A DNA stretch of 64,000 nt from positions 29,453-93,452 of IMG/VR virus record IMGVR_UViG_3300048672_000152, one strand, 5' to 3'. Both the position numbers and the translations under genes were made by a program. This DNA is from a virus. This document shows, piece by piece, positions 16,613-53,309 of the stretch (position 1 is its first letter; every line of letters begins with the position of its first letter). The notes beneath the pieces were generated by a model. The model saw nothing but the letters and a program-made list of their open reading frames with translations. It was not told the origin of the DNA and ran no database searches.

Positions 16613-16689
16613 AGCCTTGTCAGCTAACAGGATAAGCTACCGACCTCATAAGTCGTGAAATACTGGATCGTACCCAGTCGGGGCTACCA
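16613..16689 (+). tRNA. tRNA-Met (CAU) with encoded CCA
   Basis: Acceptor AGCCTTG pairs with CGGGGCT (two G-U pairs), discriminator A and genomic CCA at 16687-16689. D stem AGCT/AGCT with GG in the loop; anticodon stem CGAC/GTCG with loop CTCATAA, anticodon CAU; T stem ACTGG/CCAGT with loop ATCGTAC, which departs from the usual TTC start. A CAU anticodon could also be tRNA-Ile2 after lysidine modification. Confidence 0.82.
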
Positions 16690-30076: not shown

Positions 30077-33000
30077 ATGGCAGATAATGTAGTAGGCTCA
30101 GTTGTTGGTCGTGTTAGGTTTAGTATTGATAAAAGGTCGTGGGATAATCTCGATTTATTTCAAAAGAAACTTACCTCAATTAAACGACAAATGACTAACA
30201 TGGACAAGAGTATTAAAGTTAATGCTGTTGTCCAACAAATAAATAAAGTAGCTAATACGGTCGTGAACGCTGAAAAGAAAGTAGCTAAAGCGAAAGAAGA
30301 AGCGGCTAAGAAGAATCATAAACTAATGACTTTCGGTAGTGTTGGTGGTGATCCTAAAGGTTATACGAAGTTCTGGCAAGAGGAACTAAAGACTCGTGAC
30401 CAGCTAACTAAAGCCAGAGAAAAGCAAGATGCTATTTACGCTAAACGTCAACAAGCTGCTCTAGCTAACAATAACAAACGTGCTGGTATGTCTGATAGAC
30501 TAGCTTGGTTATTCCCTGCATCATCTGTAAGTAATCCAGCCAATCGCGGTTTGTTAGCTCAAATGCTTCGTGATGAAGCCACTGCGAGTGTTAAGCTCCA
30601 GAGAGAACAAGACAAAGCATACGAAGCTCGTCGTAAAGATGTGATGGGTAGGCGCAATGCTTCTTTAAAATCTCGTGCTGCTCGTGACAGAGCTAAAGAA
30701 AAACAAACAGCCAAAGCCAATAGAAATAGAACAGCATTTGAAGCTGGCGTTGAAAACTTCATGCTCATTAAAGAATCTCAGCTTAATCAATATGCTGATA
30801 GGGTGAGAATGAGTCAGCAACAACGTGCTGAGATGATGGGTCGTCTAGGTAAAGCAAAGGAAGATGCTTTAAAAGGTATTGACCCCACTCAGGCTAGAGC
30901 TATTGAATCTTTTAGAGCGCAAGTAAATAAAACTAAGAATGAAATGGTTAACACTGACCGTATTACTAGGTCTAATGCTGTTTCATTTAGGTCACTACGT
31001 AATGAAATTGTGCAACTAACTGCTGCTTATACGGCGTTTAGTGTTGTGCAGAATGTTGCTCAGACTGGTATGGATCTCGAAGGAATTCGTGCTGCTGCTA
31101 AAGTATTTACAGGTAGCGACGCAGGGACTACTGCTCACATGGAATACCTTGTAGAAATGTCTGATAGACTTGGCGTTAACTTCATGACAGCAGCTAAAGA
31201 GTTTAATAAATTCTCTATTGCTGTAGGTAGTAAAGCAGATCAAGGTACACAAAGACATATCTTTGAAGGTTTGTCAGAGTATGCAACAGTATTACAAGTA
31301 GACCAACAACAATATGAACGAGCTATTCGTTCAGTAGTTCAAATGTTCTCAAAGGAACAAGTATACGCTTAAATTCAGGTGCTTCATATAGTAATATATG
31401 TCGAAGAATCTCTCTAATTCGGTGGAACTCTTACCATGTAATGATGGAGACAATGCCGAGCGAAGCTCAATGTATAATATTGAGAACGTGTGACGGTCAG
31501 AACGATAGTTCGTACCCTATAAGCTATTGATAGGGGAAACGGGAGATACCGTATTATTAAATTAACGGTAAAGAGATGACCTAATCTGTATAGAAATATA
31601 CAGCAGCATGTAAAGATGCGAATAACTTAGTAGCGTAAGTTATTGAATTATATGGAAGAATTACGTGGGCAGTGGACTGACTAGCTGCCATAACATAGTA
31701 ATATGTTATAAGAAAACTTATTGAATTGCTGGAAACTCCTAAAAATCATACACTACAAAGTAATCGGTGACGGTAAGCTTGACAGTTTGAAAAGTTATGA
31801 TATGATCTTTCTTTTAATAAGAGGAAGTGAAATGGACAATCAGCAGGTAAGTTCCTGTGAAGAAGTTTGGAAATTATATGAAGATGAACCTCGTTATGAA
31901 GTATCTACTTTTGGTAGAGTTCGGCACGTTAAGGATTTATCTATCAAATATAGTAAGCCAGATAAAATAGGGTATGTATGCATCCAATGTAAAACAAAAG
32001 GTAAAATCAAAAACCTTAAAGTACACAGGATGGTGGCACAGACGTTCTTAGAAAACCCAAACTCTTTGAGAGAAGTAAATCACAAAGACGGGGTTAAAAC
32101 TAACAATAACGTAGATAATCTTGAGTGGTGTACGCGCAGGGATAACATACTGCATGGTCACGATATAGGTCTTTACGATTTAAAAGGTTCTAAGAATGGT
32201 AGGTCTGTATTAACAGAAGATTTAGTACATAAACTTTGTGCTTGGTACGAGAGTTGTCCAAACAACACTCCAAAACTCGCAGTTAAAATGTTTAGTATTA
32301 GTATACAGCAAGCATCTAAAATCAGGTGCGGTATTGCATGGAAACATATATCTTCTCAGTACAACATACTTCCCTTAGTAAACAGGAAAAACTCCAGAGA
32401 CTAGGCGTAAGCCGTACACCTAAGCAGGTGGAAGTGGTAAGCTCCTCTAACGAGGATGAAGATATAGTCCGACCTCATACGAAAGTATGAGCAGCTTGAA
32501 TAAAGCGGGGATGATGTAGCGAATCATCTTGAACATTTTGTAGCCGAAGCCCTCCCCGGATCTGTATCAGCAATGATGCGAGCAGCAGGGTATGATAACG
32601 AAAAAGATTTCTTTAAAGCTGTAGAAGCTGGTAAGATTATGGCATCAGAAGTTATGCCAAAGTTTGCCGATGAATTGAAGAAAGTAGCAAGAACAAATGG
32701 TGCGTTAGAAGCAACTACTAAAAAGACTCGTGCAGAAATGCAACGGTTCTTTAACCAACTAACATACGCCAAAGATAATATATTCCAAGGTGGAATGAAT
32801 GAAGGTTTATCTTATATGTTCGGCTCTTTTGCTGACTTACTTAAAGAGATGGAACCAGTTGCGAAAGCTTTAGGTGCTATGTTCAGAGGTGCGGTTGTAA
32901 CACTTACAGGTGCTATTAAAGTAGCACTTGTCCCGTTCAGAGGTTTAGTAGCGCTGTTTGATTCATTAGGTGATAACTTAGAACGATTAGGTATTCTTGA

Positions 33001-33421
33001 TGGTAGTGGTGGTATGTGGTCTGTAGTAGGTGGCGCTGGTGTATTGGTATTAATGGCAACACGATTCAATTGGCTGAGTAAAGCAGTGTGGTCTGTCAAT
33101 AGCGCATTGTTGACAATGGCTGCGAGGTTCGCACCTATCATTGCCGCTTATGCTGTGCTAGAAGATTTAGCTCTATACGCAACGTATGGTGATAAAGCTG
33201 ATACTGCAGTAGGTAGGGCAATCAAGTATACGCAAACAAACCCATTAGCTGACACCACAAGCAAATTGTCAAGCTTCACCCCAACAGGGTGGATAGCCAA
33301 TCAAGCTAAGACCTTAGTTGAAGTAACAATGAAAGGTGATGCTGATAATTGGTTGAGTGCAAAAATAGACCAATTTTCACATATTACATCAGCCGTAACT
33401 CAAACGGAGACAAGTCAATAA
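30077..33421 (+). CDS. Tail tape measure protein (split by group I intron)
   Basis: Exon 1 is 30077-31369 and exon 2 is 32510-33421; joined they encode 734 residues. Exon 1 is Lys/Ala/Gln-rich coiled coil (residues about 40-270) followed by the start of the conserved tape-measure domain; the join gives KEQVYA|DDVANHLEHFVAEALPGSVSAMM, restoring the typical 'Ex..xxQLxExxPGAxxxxA' segment. Exon 2 contains hydrophobic stretches (GAVVTLTGAIKVALVPF, VGGAGVLVLMATRF) likely to insert in the host membrane during DNA delivery. It sets tail length. Confidence 0.88.
31779..31806 (+). promoter_or_regulatory. Sigma70-like promoter inside the intron
   Basis: Consensus TTGACA (31779-31784), 16-base spacer, TATGAT (31801-31806), 25 bases before the HNH start codon with GAGGAAG between. 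It would express the endonuclease independently of late transcription. Confidence 0.75.
31832..32404 (+). CDS. Intron-encoded HNH homing endonuclease (NUMOD4 + HNH_3)
   Basis: A 190-residue protein starting MDNQQVSSCEEVWKLYEDEP. NUMOD4: YEDEPRYEVSTFGRVRHV. HNH_3: LKVHRMVAQTFLENP, EVNHKDGVKTNNNVDNLEW (His-Asn-Asn) and RRDNILHGHD. The C-terminal helical part (LAVKMFSISIQQASKIRCG) resembles the recognition segment of the HNH protein at 18693-19409. The start is set by GAGGAAG and by the promoter upstream; a longer frame from 31721 would cross that promoter. Confidence 0.9.
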   Translation: MDNQQVSSCEEVWKLYEDEPRYEVSTFGRVRHVKDLSIKYSKPDKIGYVCIQCKTKGKIKNLKVHRMVAQTFLENPNSLREVNHKDGVKTNNNVDNLEWCTRRDNILHGHDIGLYDLKGSKNGRSVLTEDLVHKLCAWYESCPNNTPKLAVKMFSISIQQASKIRCGIAWKHISSQYNILPLVNRKNSRD

Positions 33422-41762: not shown

Positions 41763-42272
41763 ATGTCTTTTCTTCCTTATCCTCCATCGAACACTACAGA
41801 TGCTATCTCTGTATTGAAGCAAGATATAAATCTTGCACACGAGATAGTTCATGGTGATGATGATCAGGATGTTTTAACTGAAAATGGTTTAGTACCTTCT
41901 TTCAGTAAAGTAATAAAGACGCTGAATACTGGAAGTCTTATTGTTTCCACTATGAATATAGTGACTACATCTAATACAGCTTTCAGTGTTTCAGCCGATA
42001 ATCATATAACACATTATTGTTGTACAGCTAATATGGACGTTGACGTAATAGTCAACGCTCCAATCCTTACTGAAACTGGCGAACCAGTAACAGGTGCTTT
42101 AATATTCTTCACTCAAGTTGGGGAAGGTGTTGTTAGGTTAGTACCATCATCAGGTATTAGTTTTATATATCCCGAAGATGCAAGCCCTACTACATTCAGT
42201 AAAGGTGCTACAATAGCGATAGAAAGTATGTCTCCAACACAATGGATCGTGACAGGTAACATGGGGTATTAA
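41763..42272 (+). CDS. Second fibre protein with shared N-terminal attachment domain
   Basis: A 169-residue protein whose N-terminus (MSFLPYPPSNTTDAISVLKQD, IVHGDDDQDVLTENGLVPSFSKVIKTL) parallels the 529-residue fibre gene just upstream, then diverges to a beta-rich C-terminus (VVRLVPSSGISFIYPED, WIVTGNMGY). Probably arose by duplication of the attachment domain and carries a different tip. Confidence 0.68.
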   Translation: MSFLPYPPSNTTDAISVLKQDINLAHEIVHGDDDQDVLTENGLVPSFSKVIKTLNTGSLIVSTMNIVTTSNTAFSVSADNHITHYCCTANMDVDVIVNAPILTETGEPVTGALIFFTQVGEGVVRLVPSSGISFIYPEDASPTTFSKGATIAIESMSPTQWIVTGNMGY

Positions 42273-42274
42273 CC

Positions 42275-42961
42275 ATGAACCAAAGAAAGCTATTCCCTAT
42301 CATAGCAGGCGGTTACAGAACTAGAGTAAAGAAAGTTCTATTGTCTAAGATGTATCCACGATATATAGATGAAAAGTTGGTCGTGAATGAATATGAAATA
42401 CTTAGTGGTAATCACTATACTGCTGGACATCCTTACGAAGAAAGATTATTCACACTAGAGTTTGAATTTGTAGACAACACAGAAAATAGTGATATAATTA
42501 TAGTATTACATCGTACAGGTTTCGACGGTGGTTATTATTTAACTAAACAGATAAATAATTTTAGATTCACTAACGGTGAGTACATTCTGCGGTTTACGCA
42601 AGCATCTCCTGTAGAGTCAGAACCAATGAAACGTATTGAGTTGATTAAAGATTCAATCACCATTATTGATGAAGTAGTTGCAGACTTACCAAGCCCTTTC
42701 GGACAAACAGTATCATCACTGAGGAATCGCCTACGATTAGGTGCATCTACTGAAGAAAATACAGATTCATTAACGCTCTATAAAAATCTATTCCCTGCTG
42801 TATACACCAACATTTATACAATAGTAAATAGTACGCGCACTGACTGGTTCAAAGCATTCAGTGACCAGTACATCCAATCTACTCCGTCAGGCAATCCATT
42901 AACATTGCGCAAGAATGGTGAAACATCTTATGTATTCAGAGGTGGCAGTAGTGCTACATAA
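42275..42961 (+). CDS. Hypothetical virion or tail-associated protein
   Basis: A 228-residue soluble protein starting MNQRKLFPIIAGGYRTRVKKVLL, beta-rich with no membrane segment. It follows the fibre genes at a 2-base spacing and precedes the lysis region, so a tail or fibre-accessory role is possible. No family recognised. Confidence 0.6.
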   Translation: MNQRKLFPIIAGGYRTRVKKVLLSKMYPRYIDEKLVVNEYEILSGNHYTAGHPYEERLFTLEFEFVDNTENSDIIIVLHRTGFDGGYYLTKQINNFRFTNGEYILRFTQASPVESEPMKRIELIKDSITIIDEVVADLPSPFGQTVSSLRNRLRLGASTEENTDSLTLYKNLFPAVYTNIYTIVNSTRTDWFKAFSDQYIQSTPSGNPLTLRKNGETSYVFRGGSSAT

Positions 42962-42974
42962 CTAAGGAACTTAA

Positions 42975-43274
42975 ATGAACATAGAAATATTTGCACTACT
43001 AAAGTACGGTTGGGTTGCACTAGGTACTTGGTTTTGGTATGACAAACAGAAGAATGATAAAATCATAGAGTCTGTGGTGGCTAAATTATCAAACTCTCCA
43101 ACCTTTGATGACATGGAAAAAGAGATAAATAAGTCCGTGTCGAGTATCAAGGATGACCAACGAGAAATGATTATAATGACTCGTGAAATGTCAATCACAC
43201 TGAACCAGCTTGTAAGGGATTTAGCTGTTCTTAATGCTAAGTGGAGCATGAAGAATGACAGCGATAAATCCTAA
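42975..43274 (+). CDS. Small protein with N-terminal membrane segment and coiled coil
   Basis: A 99-residue protein. Residues 4-22 are hydrophobic (IFALLKYGWVALGTWFWY), followed by a Lys/Glu/Asp-rich helix (EKEINKSVSSIKDDQREMIIMTREM). This layout resembles small phage proteins next to holins, but no catalytic motif is present. Its end overlaps the receiver-domain gene by 20 bases. Confidence 0.62.
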   Translation: MNIEIFALLKYGWVALGTWFWYDKQKNDKIIESVVAKLSNSPTFDDMEKEINKSVSSIKDDQREMIIMTREMSITLNQLVRDLAVLNAKWSMKNDSDKS

Positions 43275-43686
43275 GATAATGCTTGTGGAGGATGATAGTT
43301 TTATGCTATTATTCCTCACGCAGTTGTTTGAGAAGCATGGTTATGAGGTGTGCCCTGTGTATGGACATTATGCTGCATTAGCTAGTGCTATAGAATTTAA
43401 ACCTGATGTAATTGTGCTTGACATATCTTTAGATGACGGATATACTGGTTATGATGTATCTGAAGAATTGAAACTCAATACAATTACAAAAGATATACCA
43501 ACTGTATTCCTCACTGCGGAAGTGGATGAGAAATCACGTTGTAAAGCATTTATGTGTGGTGGAGTTGATTTTCTAACTAAACCCTTCAATAAAGAAGATT
43601 TACTCAGTCGTGTCAAACCTTTGGCAATGATTGGTAAGATGTCAAAAATGTTAAGTAATATGACTAATTTTAATAAGGAAGCATGA
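43255..43686 (+). CDS. Stand-alone response-regulator receiver (CheY-like)
   Basis: A 143-residue protein with the complete receiver-domain set: acidic pocket E12-D13-D14 in MLVEDDSF, phosphoacceptor D56 in VIVLDISL, T87 in VFLTAE, K109 in LTKPF. Only a 25-residue tail (AMIGKMSKMLSNMTNF) follows; there is no DNA-binding or enzymatic output domain. Such proteins act by binding a partner when phosphorylated by a histidine kinase. It is expressed in the late operon, overlapping a small membrane protein gene and preceding a membrane protein and lysozyme; no kinase is encoded nearby, so any phosphate would come from the host. Confidence 0.9.
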   Translation: MTAINPKIMLVEDDSFMLLFLTQLFEKHGYEVCPVYGHYAALASAIEFKPDVIVLDISLDDGYTGYDVSEELKLNTITKDIPTVFLTAEVDEKSRCKAFMCGGVDFLTKPFNKEDLLSRVKPLAMIGKMSKMLSNMTNFNKEA

Positions 43687-43687
43687 T

Positions 43688-43795
43688 ATGCCAACGGAAA
43701 CCCCGCAGCCTGAGAAGCCCAAGAAACCCCCTGTTGAAACTAATGTACCAACAGACCCAACTGAATCTGGCGATCCTGTAAAGGAAACTAAGTAA
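43688..43795 (+). CDS. Proline-rich 35-residue protein
   Basis: ATG at 43688 with GGAAG upstream; the product is MPTETPQPEKPKKPPVETNVP followed by an Asp/Pro/Thr/Ser tail ending VKETK. The stop overlaps the next ATG (TAATGATG). High Pro, Lys and Thr suggests an extended peptide or linker. Function unknown. Confidence 0.55.
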   Translation: MPTETPQPEKPKKPPVETNVPTDPTESGDPVKETK

Positions 43796-44211
43796 TGATG
43801 TACCTGCTCATCACACCTATCACTCTAATGATTATTTCATTTCTGATAAGAGACAAAGATATTGTTGAGGTGAGCAGGTATCTTTCTGTTGTTCTTATTC
43901 TCGACATATTAACTTGGTTACTATTTCAGACAGATTTTTATTATATACGTTCCGCATTGATAGACATACTAATGTTTGTAGTGGTATTCAAATTAGACGA
44001 TACCAAGAAATCCTTAATCATAGGATTACCCTGCATGATAAGTTTTGTATTAAACATCATCGAACAGTTCAGTTACTATCAAACAATATTTTATGACTTT
44101 CGCCCATACATCCAATTCATTCTTATTCAGATTATGTTATGGGGGTTAGTATTCAACTGCAAGTGGAGAAAATATGCAAAACAAATTCGCAGAAATGATT
44201 CTGAAGATTGA
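43795..44211 (+). CDS. Multi-pass membrane protein, about four segments
   Basis: A 138-residue protein with hydrophobic segments near residues 2-19, 27-44, 53-65, 72-90 and 105-120 and a basic C-terminus (KWRKYAKQIRR). Between the receiver gene and the lysozyme gene it may be a holin, a signal-transducing partner of the receiver protein, or another lysis regulator; sequence does not decide. Confidence 0.65.
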   Translation: MMYLLITPITLMIISFLIRDKDIVEVSRYLSVVLILDILTWLLFQTDFYYIRSALIDILMFVVVFKLDDTKKSLIIGLPCMISFVLNIIEQFSYYQTIFYDFRPYIQFILIQIMLWGLVFNCKWRKYAKQIRRNDSED

Positions 44212-44650
44212 AGAAGGGAGATCATTAAAGCCATACTACTGTACTGAACATTTTCCGACAATAGGGTATGGACGGAAGTTATCAGATATTAAATATGCAC
44301 CTCTCCCTAACATTGTTGCAAACGAAAAAGAAGAATTAGAATTCTTACGTAAACGAATTCAAGAATCCATCAATAAACTATCTACACAAAAACCTTTAGC
44401 TTGGTCGAAATGTAACGAACAAAGACAAGCTATCCTCGTGTCGATGGTGTATCAACTTGGGTTCAACGGTACGTTGGTCTTCAAAAAGATGTGGGCTGCT
44501 ATTGAAGTTGGTAACTTTGAAGAAGCATCTAAACAAATGTTAGATAGTCTGTGGGCTAAACAAACCCCCAAACGAGCATTACGTCATGCTAAAACAATGA
44601 AAGACGGCAGCTTAGATATGTATTATGTTTCAGCCGGAGTATTCAAGTAA
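44174..44650 (+). CDS. Endolysin, T4-lysozyme-type muramidase (GH24)
   Basis: A 158-residue enzyme cleaving the peptidoglycan N-acetylmuramic acid to N-acetylglucosamine bond. The catalytic triad pattern E-x8-C-x5-T is visible in KIEEGRSLKPYYCTEHFPTIGYG: Glu in the second position of EEG, Cys in place of the T4 Asp20, and Thr before IGYG. AILVSMVYQLGFNG and WAAIEVGNFEEASKQML continue the fold. No signal peptide, so it needs a holin. Overlaps the upstream gene by 38 bases. Confidence 0.9.
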   Translation: MQNKFAEMILKIEEGRSLKPYYCTEHFPTIGYGRKLSDIKYAPLPNIVANEKEELEFLRKRIQESINKLSTQKPLAWSKCNEQRQAILVSMVYQLGFNGTLVFKKMWAAIEVGNFEEASKQMLDSLWAKQTPKRALRHAKTMKDGSLDMYYVSAGVFK

Positions 44651-45018
44651 TGTACACCCCACTTTTAAAGCTCTTAGGAGCGTTGCTGATAGGCTTATCT
44701 ATCTACGGGTATATCTACGTACTACAAGCGGATAAAGATGCCTTAGAAGCTTCTGTAGAGCTTTATAAACAGCAATCAGAACAAGCTGTAGCTCTAGCTA
44801 ACCAGAATACACAGAAATACTTAGAATTGCAGGAAAGAAATAAGTTACAGCTTGAAAAACTTATTGCATTACAGAATTCTATTGATAAAATAAAAGAAGA
44901 ACAACATTCTTCTGAGAAAGAGACCATCAAGTATGTTGCATCACTCCCTGAAGGCTTTGAAAAGTCTTGTCTTAATATGTCTGTTAGTCCCTCTATTAGT
45001 GGCGTGTCAGAACACTAA
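44650..45018 (+). CDS. Rz: Inner-membrane spanin (Rz-like)
   Basis: A 122-residue protein with an N-terminal membrane segment (LLKLLGALLIGLSIYGYIYVL) and a periplasmic coiled coil (YKQQSEQAVALANQNTQKYLEL, KIKEEQHSSEKE). It shares its start with the lysozyme stop. It pairs with the outer-membrane lipoprotein encoded in an overlapping frame to fuse the two membranes in the last step of lysis. Confidence 0.85.
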   Translation: MYTPLLKLLGALLIGLSIYGYIYVLQADKDALEASVELYKQQSEQAVALANQNTQKYLELQERNKLQLEKLIALQNSIDKIKEEQHSSEKETIKYVASLPEGFEKSCLNMSVSPSISGVSEH

Positions 45019-45226
45019 AACAGTCTATGTTGATCGCATTGTAGAAGTTCCAGTTAACACTCCCCCTCAATTGATGCAAGAATGCCCTGTCAGTGTACGC
45101 TCTGGTGAAAAGGTTATTGACTACATCACTTCAGAGAAACGTCTCCGCAATGATTTAGCTATTTGCAATTTAACAATAAAAGCAAGGAATGAAAATGAAT
45201 TGGCTAAAGAACATCCACAAAAGTAA
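44933..45226 (+). CDS. Rz1: Outer-membrane spanin lipoprotein (Rz1-like)
   Basis: A 97-residue protein with a lipoprotein signal (LVLICLLVPLLVAC lipobox, Cys at about residue 25), then VPVNTPPQLMQECPV and a charged tail. It starts inside the Rz frame and continues 208 bases beyond it, the usual overlapping spanin arrangement. Indicates a Gram-negative host. Confidence 0.85.
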   Translation: MLHHSLKALKSLVLICLLVPLLVACQNTKTVYVDRIVEVPVNTPPQLMQECPVSVRSGEKVIDYITSEKRLRNDLAICNLTIKARNENELAKEHPQK

Positions 45227-45392
45227 GACAATGATATTTAATATCCTTGTAGGTATATTAGGTATTGTAGAGTTAAATATGGGTTTATTCCAAGCAGCAT
45301 TAGGTGATTACTACGGTATCATCTTTATGTTAGTTGCCATGATTAACGTAGTGCTTAGAATTGTAACTACTACACCTATGAGTGATAAATAA
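45195..45392 (+). CDS. Small membrane protein, holin candidate
   Basis: A 65-residue protein with two hydrophobic segments (IFNILVGILGIVELNMGLF and YYGIIFMLVAMINVVLRIV) separated by a short loop. AAGGAATGAAA precedes the ATG at 45195. Size, topology and position beside spanins fit a holin-type protein, but the 138-residue membrane protein is an equal candidate. Confidence 0.62.
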   Translation: MNWLKNIHKSKTMIFNILVGILGIVELNMGLFQAALGDYYGIIFMLVAMINVVLRIVTTTPMSDK

Positions 45393-45814
45393 TGTCACCG
45401 ACAATTAAAGTAATCTTTGGTAAAAACCATTTACCGTTTTCTTGGCTCATTCGTATCTTCACATGGAGCAGATGGAGTCACTGTGGTATTGTAGTTGGTG
45501 ATATGGTGTTTGAAGCCACAGCTACTAAAGGTGTTGTCATAACCCCCATCAATGACTTCATTAAGAGATACAATGACCATGCTTTTGCTAATGTTATCGT
45601 TAGAGATAGTGTTGCTGATGCTTACGATAGATTGGCTGGAGAAGTAGGTAAGAAATACGATTTCTCTGCTATCTTCGGAATATTGTTCCGCACCGGATGG
45701 AACGCAAATAATAAATGGTTCTGCTCTGAGCTTGTAGCTTATGTAGTAGGAACATATAGAGATAACAATCTTGGGAGAATTACTCCTGAGATGATATGGA
45801 GTAATAGTAAATGA
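45392..45814 (+). CDS. Permuted papain-like cysteine peptidase/amidase-type protein
   Basis: A 140-residue protein with WSRWSHCGIVVGD (about 26-38), in which His probably belongs to the active site, VFEATATKGVVITP, and WFCSELVAYVVG (about 109-120), in which Cys is the probable nucleophile. The order H then C marks the permuted NlpC/P60-like (YiiX-like) fold. Might cut peptidoglycan peptides or lipid anchors. It overlaps the end of the holin candidate by one base. Confidence 0.75.
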   Translation: MSPTIKVIFGKNHLPFSWLIRIFTWSRWSHCGIVVGDMVFEATATKGVVITPINDFIKRYNDHAFANVIVRDSVADAYDRLAGEVGKKYDFSAIFGILFRTGWNANNKWFCSELVAYVVGTYRDNNLGRITPEMIWSNSK

Positions 45815-46686
45815 GTGCAAATAACATTGCAGAGACAAGCACAAGTACAGGCACTGGCAACATTACGCTTGATGGAGCTTGGTCGCAGGTGGGAACTTTC
45901 AACACAGGCAACCTAACCTTCAACAGCTTTTACGGCACTAATCATGTTTTTCCTTACATGATCCGCGATACTTCCGGCAATTGGGAAAGCGGAGAAGGGT
46001 ACTTAAGTGCATCGACTACGCTTGTGCGTCAAAACGTGTTTAACAACTCACTAGGTACAACAGCAAAGATTAACTTTCCATCGGGAGACAAGATTGTCTT
46101 TGTACCAACTGATGCGCGGTCTTTCGGCAGTCGAATGCTTAACCAAGTGAACTACGTGCTATCGTCAAATTTCTTCGGTATTCGTGGGCAGATAACAATG
46201 ACCGCCAACAGGTTATACATCACTCCACACATCATACAAGCTCCGGTGCATCTGACTACGCTGGCACACGTAATACGCACAGCAGCAGCAGCAGGTGGCA
46301 GCACAATGCGCGTCGGCATTTACAACTTGGTCAGGCAGCCACTAAACGGCAACACTTACGACTCAAATTTTACTTTACTTGCTGACCTTGGCACTGTCGC
46401 AGTTGATACCACAGGCACTAAGGCAATCACTTGTGACTTAAAACTCGGTCAAGGCGTATACGGCATTGCCACCATTTCAAACGGCGCTCCGGCTATCATG
46501 GCTACAGGGACAACGGCGGCGGATATGTGGCTGTCAGCAAACACGTATGAAGGACATCCAATCACGCATTGGTACAATGACAGCGCACCATCATTCACAG
46601 CGCTTCCGGCAAACACTCGCGTTGATATGCCAGTTGTCATGAACAACAGCGCACCGCAGGCAATGTTCAGAGGTAACATTCTATGA
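45811..46686 (+). CDS. Fibre-like or surface protein, unusual base composition
   Basis: A 291-residue beta-rich protein (TSTSTGTGNITLDGAWSQVG, YGTNHVFPYMIRDTSG, GIYNLVRQPLNGNTYD). Its N-terminal TSTSTGTGNITLDG...TFNSFYG phrase recalls phage adhesins. Local G+C is much higher than the surroundings (30 of 60 bases in 46201-46260 against 18 of 60 in 45241-45300), suggesting recent acquisition. Followed by a likely fibre-assembly gene. Confidence 0.65.
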   Translation: MSANNIAETSTSTGTGNITLDGAWSQVGTFNTGNLTFNSFYGTNHVFPYMIRDTSGNWESGEGYLSASTTLVRQNVFNNSLGTTAKINFPSGDKIVFVPTDARSFGSRMLNQVNYVLSSNFFGIRGQITMTANRLYITPHIIQAPVHLTTLAHVIRTAAAAGGSTMRVGIYNLVRQPLNGNTYDSNFTLLADLGTVAVDTTGTKAITCDLKLGQGVYGIATISNGAPAIMATGTTAADMWLSANTYEGHPITHWYNDSAPSFTALPANTRVDMPVVMNNSAPQAMFRGNIL

Positions 46687-49599: not shown

Positions 49600-52320
49600 T
49601 TATTGACACATTTCACAAGATTCCAAGTCTCTCACTAACCCATCAGCACCACGTACTGAGTAGATGTAATATAGAGATAAAATGTCCTCATTGTCAAATG
49701 CCATACGATGTATTTTACTAATATATTCTTCACTGTCATTTGATGTGAAGTACAGATTTAAACTCTGTCCTTGGTCAATGTATTTCTGTCTTTGTGCAGC
49801 TAAGTTGATTACCCATTCCATTGGGATTTCAAAAGCTGTCAAGAATACTTTCTTCTCGTGTTCGGTGAGCCAACTTACTTGCTGTACACTACCTTTAGAC
49901 CTAGCGAGTAAATTAATATTCTCGTCATTATATACACCACGTTCTTTCATCAACTTCAACAAAACTTTGTTGATTCGGAAGAATTCACCACCAGCAGATT
50001 GTTTTGTAAACACCATAGCTACGTCTAAACCGATACCTTCACTAGCACCAGCCATGATCTCAGCAGTAGACTTAGTGGGTGGCATCATTAATCTGGTGGC
50101 ATTACGAATACCTAAACCTTTACAACCTTCAGGTTCACCCACTACACCAGCTAACCATCTAGTAGCTTCCTTACTATCTCTATCTAATCTACTAAAGATT
50201 TCTTCATTTAGTAACATAGCATCCATACTAGCTACGGGAATACTTTTCATCTGCATTAGTGTATGCCAACCAAGAACACCACTACCTAGACTACGGAACT
50301 CTTTAGTAAACTTGTAGATTTTACGCATAGCAATTTTGTCTACATCAGTCATCTCATCCATAGTTTCTAAGTATTCAGAAATATTACAATCTGACATCAC
50401 TTGACCAATTTGTACTAGATGTTCAGGCCAACTATCCCACAACTCTAAGTTATAACAAAGGATAACACAACTAAAAGTGTATTCCTCATTAGATGGTAGA
50501 TTTGTTTCCTGACACTGACCAGTCAATATACCATTGAACATCCCCATACCACGAAGTTTTTCAGTGAAACAGTAAGTGTCATCAGTGCGTCCCTCGTCAT
50601 CTACACTAACAATTTTTACAAATTGCTTTGCGTCACGTTGAGGTAGGCGTTTCACCACACTCAATCTGTGTAGGTAATTACCAAGACCCAATTCCATCAG
50701 ACGATAGACATCATAACTAGTAATCAGTAATCTCTCAGCAGGTTGACATAAATACTCTTTATGCTCCCCTGTACCATTATTAGCTGGTAATGTTTTATAA
50801 CCGCCTTCACTCATTAGGGTTACTTTAGCACTCACCCCTAATGTTTGCAACATACGTTGAATTTCTCTTAAGAATTCAGGCTCTACGCTACAAGCTACTA
50901 ATTGCTGATTACCGCCATTCCGATAAACACAACCATCACCATCTAAGTAACCAGCTAACCATTCCAACCTTGATTCAATAGTATAAGTGGCATCCGGTAC
51001 GAAGAATTTGGGTTTTAATCCATCCACTCGACCAATTTCTCTATCCATAGATTCATTTGTGCTGTGAGTGACTAAATCAAATAAATGAGTAAGTTTACGT
51101 TTTTCTCCGTAAAAATACACGTTTGCTTTCCCACGTACAACACAACCATCTGCGCTAAAGAACCCGTTCTGGTATGCTTTAGTTAATACCTTATCACCCT
51201 CTATCACAGGTAAGTCGAACTTAATTAACTTATCACCAGCTACTAGTTCATTGGTACGTTTCTCAATAACATTGCCTGTGTAGCCATCAGCTACATAAAA
51301 CTTATGGTATGGGGTACAATTTAAAACTTGACCACCAGAAGTAGTAACTTTTAACAGTTTTTGGTCAACACCAGTTTTTACAATAGTTGTTGCACTAAAT
51401 TGCTCACCGTTCCACACATTTACTTGTTGACCTTCTAAGTCAGCAATAGGGAAGTACCCGTAATCTGTTAGGATCTGAGTTTCTGGTGCAACACATAAAT
51501 TACTTGCGTTAGTTTTCAAACCTTTCAATTTAAACGCTTCAGCGAGGTGTCTATTACACTTGTCAATGAAGGTATAGTAACCTCTACCTCGTGGTAATTT
51601 AACCTCTAGCGTCCTTTGGAAGCGTTTTAAAGTCTCTTTATCTTTATTACGCATCTTATTAACATCACTATCCTTAATCAACCACCCAACATTGTTAGAT
51701 TCTGGATTAAGATACAGGTTGTCAGCAACAGCATAAAAATCACCATGAGATAAACCTATACTGTAAGCTAAACTACCTCTACGGGCTGCTTGCGTTACTT
51801 CATCCATACAGTTAATGAAATCCCGTACAATAGGCATCACACCTAAACTGTAACCACCTCTCCGAAGGGGTTCACCCTCAGCAGGCCAATCATCAATGCT
51901 GTAACTTGTGCCATGACTATGTTTAGTCAGTATAGCAGCTTCTGTGATAGCGTTATAGCGGTCAAATAAATTATTACCTACATTACCACCAGCACAAGAT
52001 ACTGTAGTACCCCGCTTACGTAAACCACCGTTAGCTAATAGTGGGGTAGATGGGCTAATGAAGCCATCCCACAATGCTTTAAAGAATACTTCTTCCCAAG
52101 ATAATCCTTGGGTATATGTATCACTCTCCCACCACTCCGGTTTGACTGATGGCGCGTGTTGCGCCATAGTCTTAGCGATTGCTTCATACCGAGATTTAGG
52201 AGTTTCTTCTTCAAAAGAATATTTCTCGTAAAACAACTGAATACCTGAAGTCGTGTACCATGATGGTGCTTCACCAATCTCCTGTAGTCGTTTACGTAAT
52301 GTTGAATAATCTACCTTCAT
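49600..52320 (-). CDS. nrdA: Ribonucleotide reductase large subunit with intein
   Basis: A 906-residue precursor (start ATG at 52320 after GGAGGG; an upstream start would overlap nrdB). A 327-residue intein is embedded; removal leaves a 579-residue class I NrdA that lacks an N-terminal ATP cone. The host protein has STPLLANGG, VSCAGG (first active cysteine), the NL|CQE active-site loop split by the intein, SCVILC, MPPTKSTAEIMAGASEG and the C-terminal CEMCQ pair that receives electrons. It reduces ribonucleoside diphosphates with NrdB; the glutaredoxin-like gene beyond nrdB may supply electrons. Confidence 0.93.
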   Translation of the reverse strand: MKVDYSTLRKRLQEIGEAPSWYTTSGIQLFYEKYSFEEETPKSRYEAIAKTMAQHAPSVKPEWWESDTYTQGLSWEEVFFKALWDGFISPSTPLLANGGLRKRGTTVSCAGGNVGNNLFDRYNAITEAAILTKHSHGTSYSIDDWPAEGEPLRRGGYSLGVMPIVRDFINCMDEVTQAARRGSLAYSIGLSHGDFYAVADNLYLNPESNNVGWLIKDSDVNKMRNKDKETLKRFQRTLEVKLPRGRGYYTFIDKCNRHLAEAFKLKGLKTNASNLCVAPETQILTDYGYFPIADLEGQQVNVWNGEQFSATTIVKTGVDQKLLKVTTSGGQVLNCTPYHKFYVADGYTGNVIEKRTNELVAGDKLIKFDLPVIEGDKVLTKAYQNGFFSADGCVVRGKANVYFYGEKRKLTHLFDLVTHSTNESMDREIGRVDGLKPKFFVPDATYTIESRLEWLAGYLDGDGCVYRNGGNQQLVACSVEPEFLREIQRMLQTLGVSAKVTLMSEGGYKTLPANNGTGEHKEYLCQPAERLLITSYDVYRLMELGLGNYLHRLSVVKRLPQRDAKQFVKIVSVDDEGRTDDTYCFTEKLRGMGMFNGILTGQCQETNLPSNEEYTFSCVILCYNLELWDSWPEHLVQIGQVMSDCNISEYLETMDEMTDVDKIAMRKIYKFTKEFRSLGSGVLGWHTLMQMKSIPVASMDAMLLNEEIFSRLDRDSKEATRWLAGVVGEPEGCKGLGIRNATRLMMPPTKSTAEIMAGASEGIGLDVAMVFTKQSAGGEFFRINKVLLKLMKERGVYNDENINLLARSKGSVQQVSWLTEHEKKVFLTAFEIPMEWVINLAAQRQKYIDQGQSLNLYFTSNDSEEYISKIHRMAFDNEDILSLYYIYSVRGADGLVRDLESCEMCQ
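50515..51495 (-). mobile_element. Intein with LAGLIDADG-type endonuclease in nrdA
   Basis: The intein runs from Cys (codon at 51495-51493), which opens the splicing block CVAPETQILTD, to the Gln before the extein CQETNL. N-terminal splicing blocks: CVAPETQI (block A) and LNCTPYHKFYV (block B). Endonuclease: YQNGFFSADGCVV and WLAGYLDGDGCVY. C-terminal blocks: TYCFTEK and FNGILTGQ|C, ending in Gly-Gln rather than His-Asn. The insertion is immediately before the NrdA catalytic cysteine, which becomes the +1 residue. Confidence 0.92.
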
Positions 52321-53309
52321 TAATCCCTCCAAGCCGCAATAAAACCTTCACTATCCCATTTACTCTCATACTCGCTACCCTGACCTTTAGTGAAGAAGTC
52401 AACAGATTTATAGGAGTATGTATTCTTTTCAAACCAACCAACAATTGTACAGTCTGTTACGTCAAACATTTTAGGTAATTGAATACGCTCTAAATAAATA
52501 TTTAAGCGGTATTTAACGAATTCCTTCATATCTTGTTTAGTAACACCATTCAAGGTATCTTGTAAGAAAGCCATCTCGATAATACGACACTCATGTTCAT
52601 AAGCGTGTAGAACAGCAGCTTTTACCGCTTCATACCGAGGAGTATCATCTACTAACTTAGTACCTAATTCACGATAATAAGTGTTGATAATTTCAGCACT
52701 AATAATACCATGTTGGTCTTCGTCAATAGCACTCTGATTAGTACCTCGTACAATTACAGGTAATAGATTATAACCATTAGATTGAAAGCTTTTCAATACC
52801 GCAAAAGAACTAAATAGTAAGGCTGTTTCAGTCATTGAGAAAATGATAGTAGCGAGTATCTTATCTTCTTGACCCAACATCTGTCCTAGCCATGTAACAC
52901 GTTCATTCAGTTCTGGGTCATTAACATAAGCAAGGTAGTCTTCATCCTCATCCATACCTAGTTCAATATTGATTTGATTGTAAAACTCCGCATGTACCGC
53001 ACGTTCTACCATAGATACAATAGACGCAGCTAATTGCACTTCTGGTCGAGGAAAAGTTTTAGCTACCACATCTTCCCAGAACCTACCAACAATTAATTCA
53101 TAACGTAAGAACAGGTGTAATACGGTTTTTACCGCATGAAATTGTTCTTCATTCAATTCATATAATAATTGCATACGGTCTAAATGAACTTTCATTTCTG
53201 AACTAAACCACAACTGCTCCTCTAACTGTTTATTAGCTAAAGTAACAATGTCTGGGTAATGTCTTGTGTAACTATCAGTTGGTGTGCAAATACGAGGCAA
53301 CTTAGACAT
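52320..53309 (-). CDS. nrdB: Ribonucleotide reductase small subunit
   Basis: A 329-residue protein starting MSKLPRICTPTDSY (ATG at 53309; an in-frame TTG six bases upstream is less likely). Metal-site segments: LRYELIVGRFWE, MVERAVHAEFYNQINI (His with Tyr four residues on, the probable radical site), FSMTETALLFSSFA and DEDQHGIISAEI. The C-terminus is acidic/aromatic for docking NrdA. It overlaps nrdA by one base, giving balanced expression. Confidence 0.9.
   Translation of the reverse strand: MSKLPRICTPTDSYTRHYPDIVTLANKQLEEQLWFSSEMKVHLDRMQLLYELNEEQFHAVKTVLHLFLRYELIVGRFWEDVVAKTFPRPEVQLAASIVSMVERAVHAEFYNQINIELGMDEDEDYLAYVNDPELNERVTWLGQMLGQEDKILATIIFSMTETALLFSSFAVLKSFQSNGYNLLPVIVRGTNQSAIDEDQHGIISAEIINTYYRELGTKLVDDTPRYEAVKAAVLHAYEHECRIIEMAFLQDTLNGVTKQDMKEFVKYRLNIYLERIQLPKMFDVTDCTIVGWFEKNTYSYKSVDFFTKGQGSEYESKWDSEGFIAAWRD

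Follow-up and report, generated by a model that had tools for sequence, protein, structure and literature searches.

A receiver gene in the lysis region

The window is the whole stretch of viral DNA analysed here, 64,000 nucleotides of the 93,452-base virus record of a marine phage. Within it, the gene for a small helical protein, termed the partner below, and the gene for a response-regulator receiver lie directly upstream of a set of lysis genes. The genes of this region are:

42975-43274 (+): partner gene, a 99-aa protein with the motif WFWYDK; N-terminus of weak hydrophobicity; long helices predicted at residues 3-39 and 44-98
43255-43686 (+): single-domain response-regulator receiver; 143 aa, ATG start, PF00072, extended C-terminal helix
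43688-43795 (+): short Pro-rich ORF, 35 aa by translation; no Pfam or PHROG match
43795-44211 (+): hydrophobic multi-pass (4-TM) protein of 138 aa, candidate holin or antiholin; several hydrophobic segments, no family match
44174-44650 (+): endolysin of the phage lysozyme family; PF00959, E 2e-8; PHROG endolysin, 4e-15
44650-45018 (+): Rz-like inner-membrane spanin subunit, from a weak PHROG Rz-like spanin match (E 0.003), an N-terminal TM, and position
44933-45226 (+): Rz1-like spanin lipoprotein overlapping Rz; PF23793 (LysC/Rz1-like), E 3e-5, under the cut-off; PHROG Rz-like spanin, 1.1e-12; lipobox LLVAC
45189-45392 (+): two-TM protein of 67 aa, holin candidate; two hydrophobic segments, no family match
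45392-45814 (+): C92-family permuted papain-like amidase; PF05708, E 7e-9; phrog_1128, 7.6e-30

The first-pass annotation had read 43255-43686 as a complete CheY-like receiver without an output domain, upstream of a Pro-rich peptide, a multi-pass membrane protein, and the endolysin, and had proposed a profile search. That search bears the reading out. The protein matches Pfam Response_reg (PF00072) with 77.9 bits (cut-off 30.2; E 8.6e-22), the match covering residues 8-121 and the full profile (positions 1-111 of 111), and the order of the downstream genes agrees with ORFs 43688-43795, 43795-44211, and 44174-44650. Beyond PF00072, the Pfam search of the 143-aa protein gave no match and no second or C-terminal DNA-binding domain, and we therefore conclude that it has no output domain. 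AlphaFold2 returned a receiver fold (mean pLDDT 90, pTM 0.85) in which alpha5 extends to residue 142; the remainder of the protein beyond the PF00072 match is this extended helix. Among the residues previously listed as intact, E12, D13, D56, T87, and K109 align with the active-site columns of E. coli CheY and PhoB and represent the acidic pair, the phosphoacceptor, the threonine, and the lysine. D14, listed with them, lies outside the active site, and some relatives have A, S, or Q in its place. No second receiver was found in the whole 93,452-base record.

With its whole-domain match, catalytic residues, and lack of an output domain, the protein resembles the bacterial single-domain response regulators of the CheY, Spo0F, and DivK type. 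It differs from them in being phage-borne, in adjoining lysis genes, a position that is conserved in relatives, and in having an alpha5 longer by ~20 residues. The absence of a C-terminal DNA-binding domain sets it apart from PhoB/OmpR transcription factors. Nor is chemotaxis CheY its closest relative: its sequence lies closer to receivers of the PhoB/RpaA type and of cyanobacteria, with scores of 25 bits to E. coli CheY, 72 to PhoB, and 87 to the cyanobacterial receivers, and RpaA and PhoB rank well ahead of CheY proteins among PDB entries. No chemotaxis genes were seen in the stretch examined around the receiver. The best full-length viral match in a Foldseek structure comparison, including the C-terminal helix, was the receiver of Alteromonas phage V22 (E 1.6e-12, TM 0.88).

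The receiver had also been described as overlapping, and co-transcribed with, the gene of a small membrane protein. The overlap is real (20 bases between ORFs 42975-43274 and 43255-43686), and the other two elements hold in weaker form. Because the best 19-residue Kyte-Doolittle mean of the partner is 1.10 (relatives reach 1.2–1.5), its membrane association is likely rather than certain. Since a scan of 42200-46000 turned up no terminator-like site, it is plausible that the partner, receiver, and lysis genes share one transcript. AlphaFold2 modelled the partner as two helices (mean pLDDT 76, pTM 0.35). The protein has no Pfam family; comparisons with known families yielded weak coiled-coil-type matches that prove no relationship, and a PHROG labelled 'hol-like chemotaxis' weakly matched two other WFWYDK partners (1.7e-4 for L022, 2e-4 for L017). 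We infer a role for the partner in lysis solely from the position of its gene.

Two metagenomic relatives, L002 and L003, have the same gene order and encode receivers 92% and 88% identical to that of the window, with every catalytic residue kept. Comparison of the window receiver with these two gave dN/dS values of 0.09–0.14, a sign of purifying selection and thus of a functional gene. Between the window and L003, dN was 0.08 for the receiver, 0.16 for the partner, 0.22 for the lysozyme, 0.29 for Rz, and 0.38 for the 4-TM protein; by this measure, the receiver diverges less in close relatives than the lysozyme, Rz, and 4-TM genes. In L002 (8135-9512), the amidase is shortened to 87 aa and followed by a 216-aa ORF without a Pfam match and then by a second amidase-like ORF of 150 aa, possibly reflecting insertion of a homing-endonuclease-like gene.

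The partner and receiver pair in other phages

A search of relatives for the receiver together with a small membrane-protein gene, also proposed in the first-pass annotation, showed that the pair recurs. A protein with a hydrophobic N-terminus and long helices, followed by a receiver, lies in or beside the lysis regions of seven lineages (the window type, V22, A5, R8W with H4/4, R9Y1-3, V19, and one metagenomic type), and in every lineage the two genes overlap or are 1–2 bases apart. Given that the window, A5, and R9Y cassettes differ in their endolysins and holins, the part that they share is the partner plus the receiver. The earlier statement that stand-alone receivers are rare in phages is true generally but does not extend to Alteromonas phages, in which they are recurrent and were already annotated in V22, A5, and R8W.

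A DNA pattern for WFWYDK, run against 2.9 million viral contigs, hit nine that carry the partner gene. Besides L002, L003, and V22 itself, these were three contigs resembling V22, one resembling A5, and two new types, L017 and L022. All of them except L022 carry a receiver directly downstream. The motif of the window partner is present in L002, L003, L017, L022, L026, L028, and L036. The same pattern gave 35 matches in the genomes of 84,980 species, the in-frame ones falling in ORFs unlike the partner (among them L048, whose N-terminus has a hydrophobic stretch but whose C-terminal part differs), and we read these as chance.

In L017, a 23-kb fragment, the order is partner, receiver, Rz, Rz1, and a two-TM holin candidate. 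L022 has the partner, Rz, Rz1, and a two-TM protein of the L017 type, and a receiver is absent from its whole 72 kb. Retention of the partner, Rz, Rz1, and holin without a receiver indicates that the receiver is an accessory or regulatory component, dispensable in at least one cassette. The question raised earlier of whether relatives keep the gene and its key residues thus has a divided answer: L002 and L003 keep both, but the distant L022 cassette lacks the receiver while the rest is intact.

In the Alteromonas myovirus V22, the pair (gp29-gp30) stands ahead of an Rz-like gene and a two-TM protein; in the schitovirus A5, the pair (gp10-gp11) comes before an Rz-like gene that has a lipoprotein frame nested in it, and a two-TM protein and an endolysin come next. 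Both phages therefore resemble the window in having a WFWYDK partner, a single-domain receiver, and Rz-like and two-TM genes downstream. The window partner is homologous to V22 gp29 (BLASTP 1e-6) and 26–33% identical to V22 gp29 and A5 gp10. The V22 and A5 receivers are 27–28% identical to that of the window, and these phages differ from it in holin and endolysin. V22 also differs in that the amidase precedes the partner, amidase homologs sitting directly before the partner gene in V22-type phages (V22 gp28; L035/L036 order). V22 gp30 (L004:11750-12199) is a 149-aa receiver alone, which its record mislabels as 'hybrid sensor histidine kinase - response regulator'. In A5, an unannotated frame nested in and overrunning gp12 (L005:7031-7700) reads as an Rz1-like lipoprotein (lipobox LVSC), and gp12 itself is Rz-like.

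The TerL of the window phage is nearest to those of Pseudoalteromonas and Vibrio phages (~40%) and 34–35% identical to those of V22 and its relatives; A5, L022, and the L017 fragment gave no TerL match to it.

A second type of partner occurs in the remaining lineages. The autographiviruses R8W and H4/4 encode a holin, then a protein of 98 aa whose N-terminus has a single clear TM, and then the receiver (R8W gp47-gp48; H4/4 gp43-gp44). The siphoviruses R9Y1-3 and contigs L103-L106 encode a 120–121-aa protein with one N-terminal TM, the receiver, and a GH108 lysozyme. As in the window, a short helical protein with an N-terminal hydrophobic part precedes a stand-alone receiver among lysis genes; unlike in the window, the partner of R8W, H4/4, and R9Y1-3 has a clear TM and lacks WFWYDK. 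In the podovirus V19, a 93-aa N-TM protein and then the receiver lie beside a membrane protein and a DUF5675 protein, the latter of which also occurs near the V22 cassette. The V19 receiver (L107:4498-4950, OP751378 gp10; annotated as a hypothetical protein) matches PF00072 with 29.9 bits, just under the cut-off (E 6.5e-7). It no longer has D56, T87, and K109, which are replaced by P, V, and I. The two partner types share size, layout, position, and overlapping or 1–2-base junctions with the receiver, and both weakly match phrog_736. Profile comparison of the WFWYDK and R8W/R9Y partners gave no link (hhalign probability 1.4%), and we do not place them in one family.

In the receiver trees, V22, A5, and L017 form one clade (97/90) and R8W, R9Y, and H4/4 another (97/95). 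These two join (97/89), and the window clade joins them only at 89/81. Holding the window and V22-type receivers together was not rejected (p 0.44 in the first tree and 0.30 in the second), as was holding all phage receivers together (p 0.24), in alignments of 139–149 columns with a biased, uneven bacterial set drawn mostly from plasmid matches to two of these receivers. On these trees, one origin and several origins are both possible. Using the L017 receiver, the 4-TM protein, or the V19 receiver as query brought up no further lineages. Most other receiver matches in the phage collection fell in contigs labelled 'Listeria', 'Staphylococcus', or 'Bacteriophage sp.' that carry no annotation, or in records annotated in bacterial style; judged by these labels, they may be bacterial DNA and were set aside. 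No HATPase match over the cut-off, as expected of a histidine kinase, was present in eight phage records including the window record and V22. An 854-aa frame in A5 was rejected as a kinase candidate, its HATPase match being sub-threshold (E 1.5e-4, 18.2 bits).

Lysis timing and competing explanations

The timing of lysis is usually seen as a phage-internal clock, for which the known inputs are superinfection and loss of membrane potential. A receiver wired to a lysis protein, if that is what the pair represents, would let host sensing feed directly into the decision to lyse. That the pair recurs in unrelated phages infecting Alteromonas, a marine bacterium, suggests that these phages may tie the moment of lysis to a host signal. 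We see roughly even chances that the receiver is an accessory regulator of lysis timing that acts through the adjacent protein and is probably phosphorylated by a host kinase. The receiver would be translated together with the partner and would bind the partner's predicted cytoplasmic helices. Phosphorylation of D56 by a host kinase or acetyl phosphate could then change the receiver's hold on the partner, and this change might either advance or delay holin triggering and hence lysis. The proposal resembles holin/antiholin control in T4 (T/RI) and N4 (gp62-gp63) in that an accessory protein tunes holin triggering; unlike in those systems, the candidate regulator is a two-component receiver, and the likeness lies in the proposed role and not in any established sequence relation.

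A connection to lysis timing through the neighbouring membrane protein was one of three roles suggested in the first-pass annotation and is the best supported of them, given that the pair occurs in seven lineages, several with different lysis genes; the receiver-free L022 and a V19 receiver without D56, T87, and K109 speak against it. Because the V19 receiver lacks these residues, phosphorylation cannot be the mechanism in V19, and retention of the pair there without phosphotransfer speaks more for binding than for a phosphate sink. A wider version of the proposal is that the pair lets host two-component signalling time lysis across myo-, schito-, autographi-, sipho-, and other podoviruses of Alteromonas, and probably of related marine bacteria, V19 having a decayed, phosphorylation-independent pseudo-receiver. 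We put this forward tentatively and suspect that in such a general form it may well be wrong.

Single-domain receivers can also serve as phosphate sinks, and titration of phosphate from a host kinase was the second of the suggested roles. In the fuller form of this idea, a free receiver would take phosphate from a kinase or dock on it and damp a stress or envelope response, the lysis position reflecting late expression only. The intact active site around D56, the lack of an output domain, and the lack of any phage kinase found are consistent with such a decoy, and phage proteins that disrupt two-component signalling of the host exist, such as PIT4 (PMC10714779). We nevertheless consider it unlikely, because it leaves unexplained the fixed place of the receiver directly behind the partner in seven lineages and cannot apply to V19, which retains the pair without the phosphoacceptor D56 or K109. 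The third suggestion, rewiring of motility or chemotaxis by a CheY mimic acting on the flagellar motor or a chemotaxis kinase, is the weakest and in our estimation very improbable. It draws on the CheY-like domain without an output domain and on the CheY annotation of the V22 and A5 genes; the bit scores and PDB ranking given above favour PhoB, RpaA, and cyanobacterial receivers over CheY, and the gene is located in the late lysis region.

Two further explanations were weighed. The receiver might be a passenger or general auxiliary gene that moves among Alteromonas phages with adjacent host-recognition genes and has no special role in lysis. This is near the published view of V22 and A5, which have a tail-fibre/CheY block in common (PMC10579305), and would accommodate the absence of the receiver from L022. 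The tail-fibre block of A5 and V22 is present in phage P24 as well, yet Table 2 of the same paper gives no P24 receiver or gp29-32 homolog. Together with the low dN/dS, and with the presence of a receiver, always accompanied by a short helical partner, in R9Y and R8W cassettes that have other lysis genes, this makes the passenger explanation improbable. Alternatively, the partner and receiver could be a superinfection-sensing or exclusion device that brings about lysis inhibition and is not a timer tied to host metabolism. The partner looks membrane-associated with predicted cytoplasmic helices, a dead receiver as in V19 could still act as a binding switch, and lysis inhibition in N4, a schitovirus like A5, is controlled via the cytoplasmic part of its pinholin (PMC12642591). 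These phages have no known superinfection phenotype, however, and the 'Receiver domain' of N4 gp63 is a mere name for a region of the holin and not an established CheY fold; we regard this device as quite improbable.

The proposed regulation of lysis timing by the receiver is open to study with existing phage-host pairs, given that the pair is present in the cultured Alteromonas phages V22, A5, R8W, H4/4, R9Y1-3, and V19. L022, with no receiver, and V19, with a dead one, provide natural controls.

Earlier annotations and other features of the window

The receiver genes themselves were already known; what we propose here is their recurrent linkage to lysis. The V22 and A5 genes were described as CheY-like auxiliary genes (class II auxiliary metabolic gene) belonging to a host recognition module, and V22 gp29, gp31, and gp32 (A5 gp10, gp12, and gp13) were given no function (PMC7289586, PMC10579305). 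R8W gp48 was read as a PhoB for phosphate limitation (PMC8228385). None of these three papers draws a link between the gene and lysis, and the words response regulator, receiver, and CheY are absent from the main text of PMC9430817, the paper on R9Y. No paper linking these receiver genes with lysis was found in the open-access literature searched, subscription papers falling mostly outside this scope. R8W gp48 has 153 aa, ends shortly past the receiver, and aligns end to end with other single-domain receivers, which makes 'DNA-binding PhoB' doubtful. The annotations to correct are thus hybrid histidine kinase (V22), PhoB (R8W and H4/4), and hypothetical protein (R9Y and V19).

Elsewhere in the window, a group I intron (31360-31603, +; Rfam RF00028, 57.1 bits) is followed by an HNH/NUMOD4 endonuclease ORF (31721-32404, +), and both sit between ORFs 30077-31372 and 32573-33421, apparent halves of a tape-measure gene. 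The large subunit of ribonucleotide reductase (49600-52332, -) is split by an intein, with LAGLIDADG_3 and Intein_splicing matches. The sole tRNA found in the window is a tRNA-Met gene with anticodon cat (16613-16689, +).
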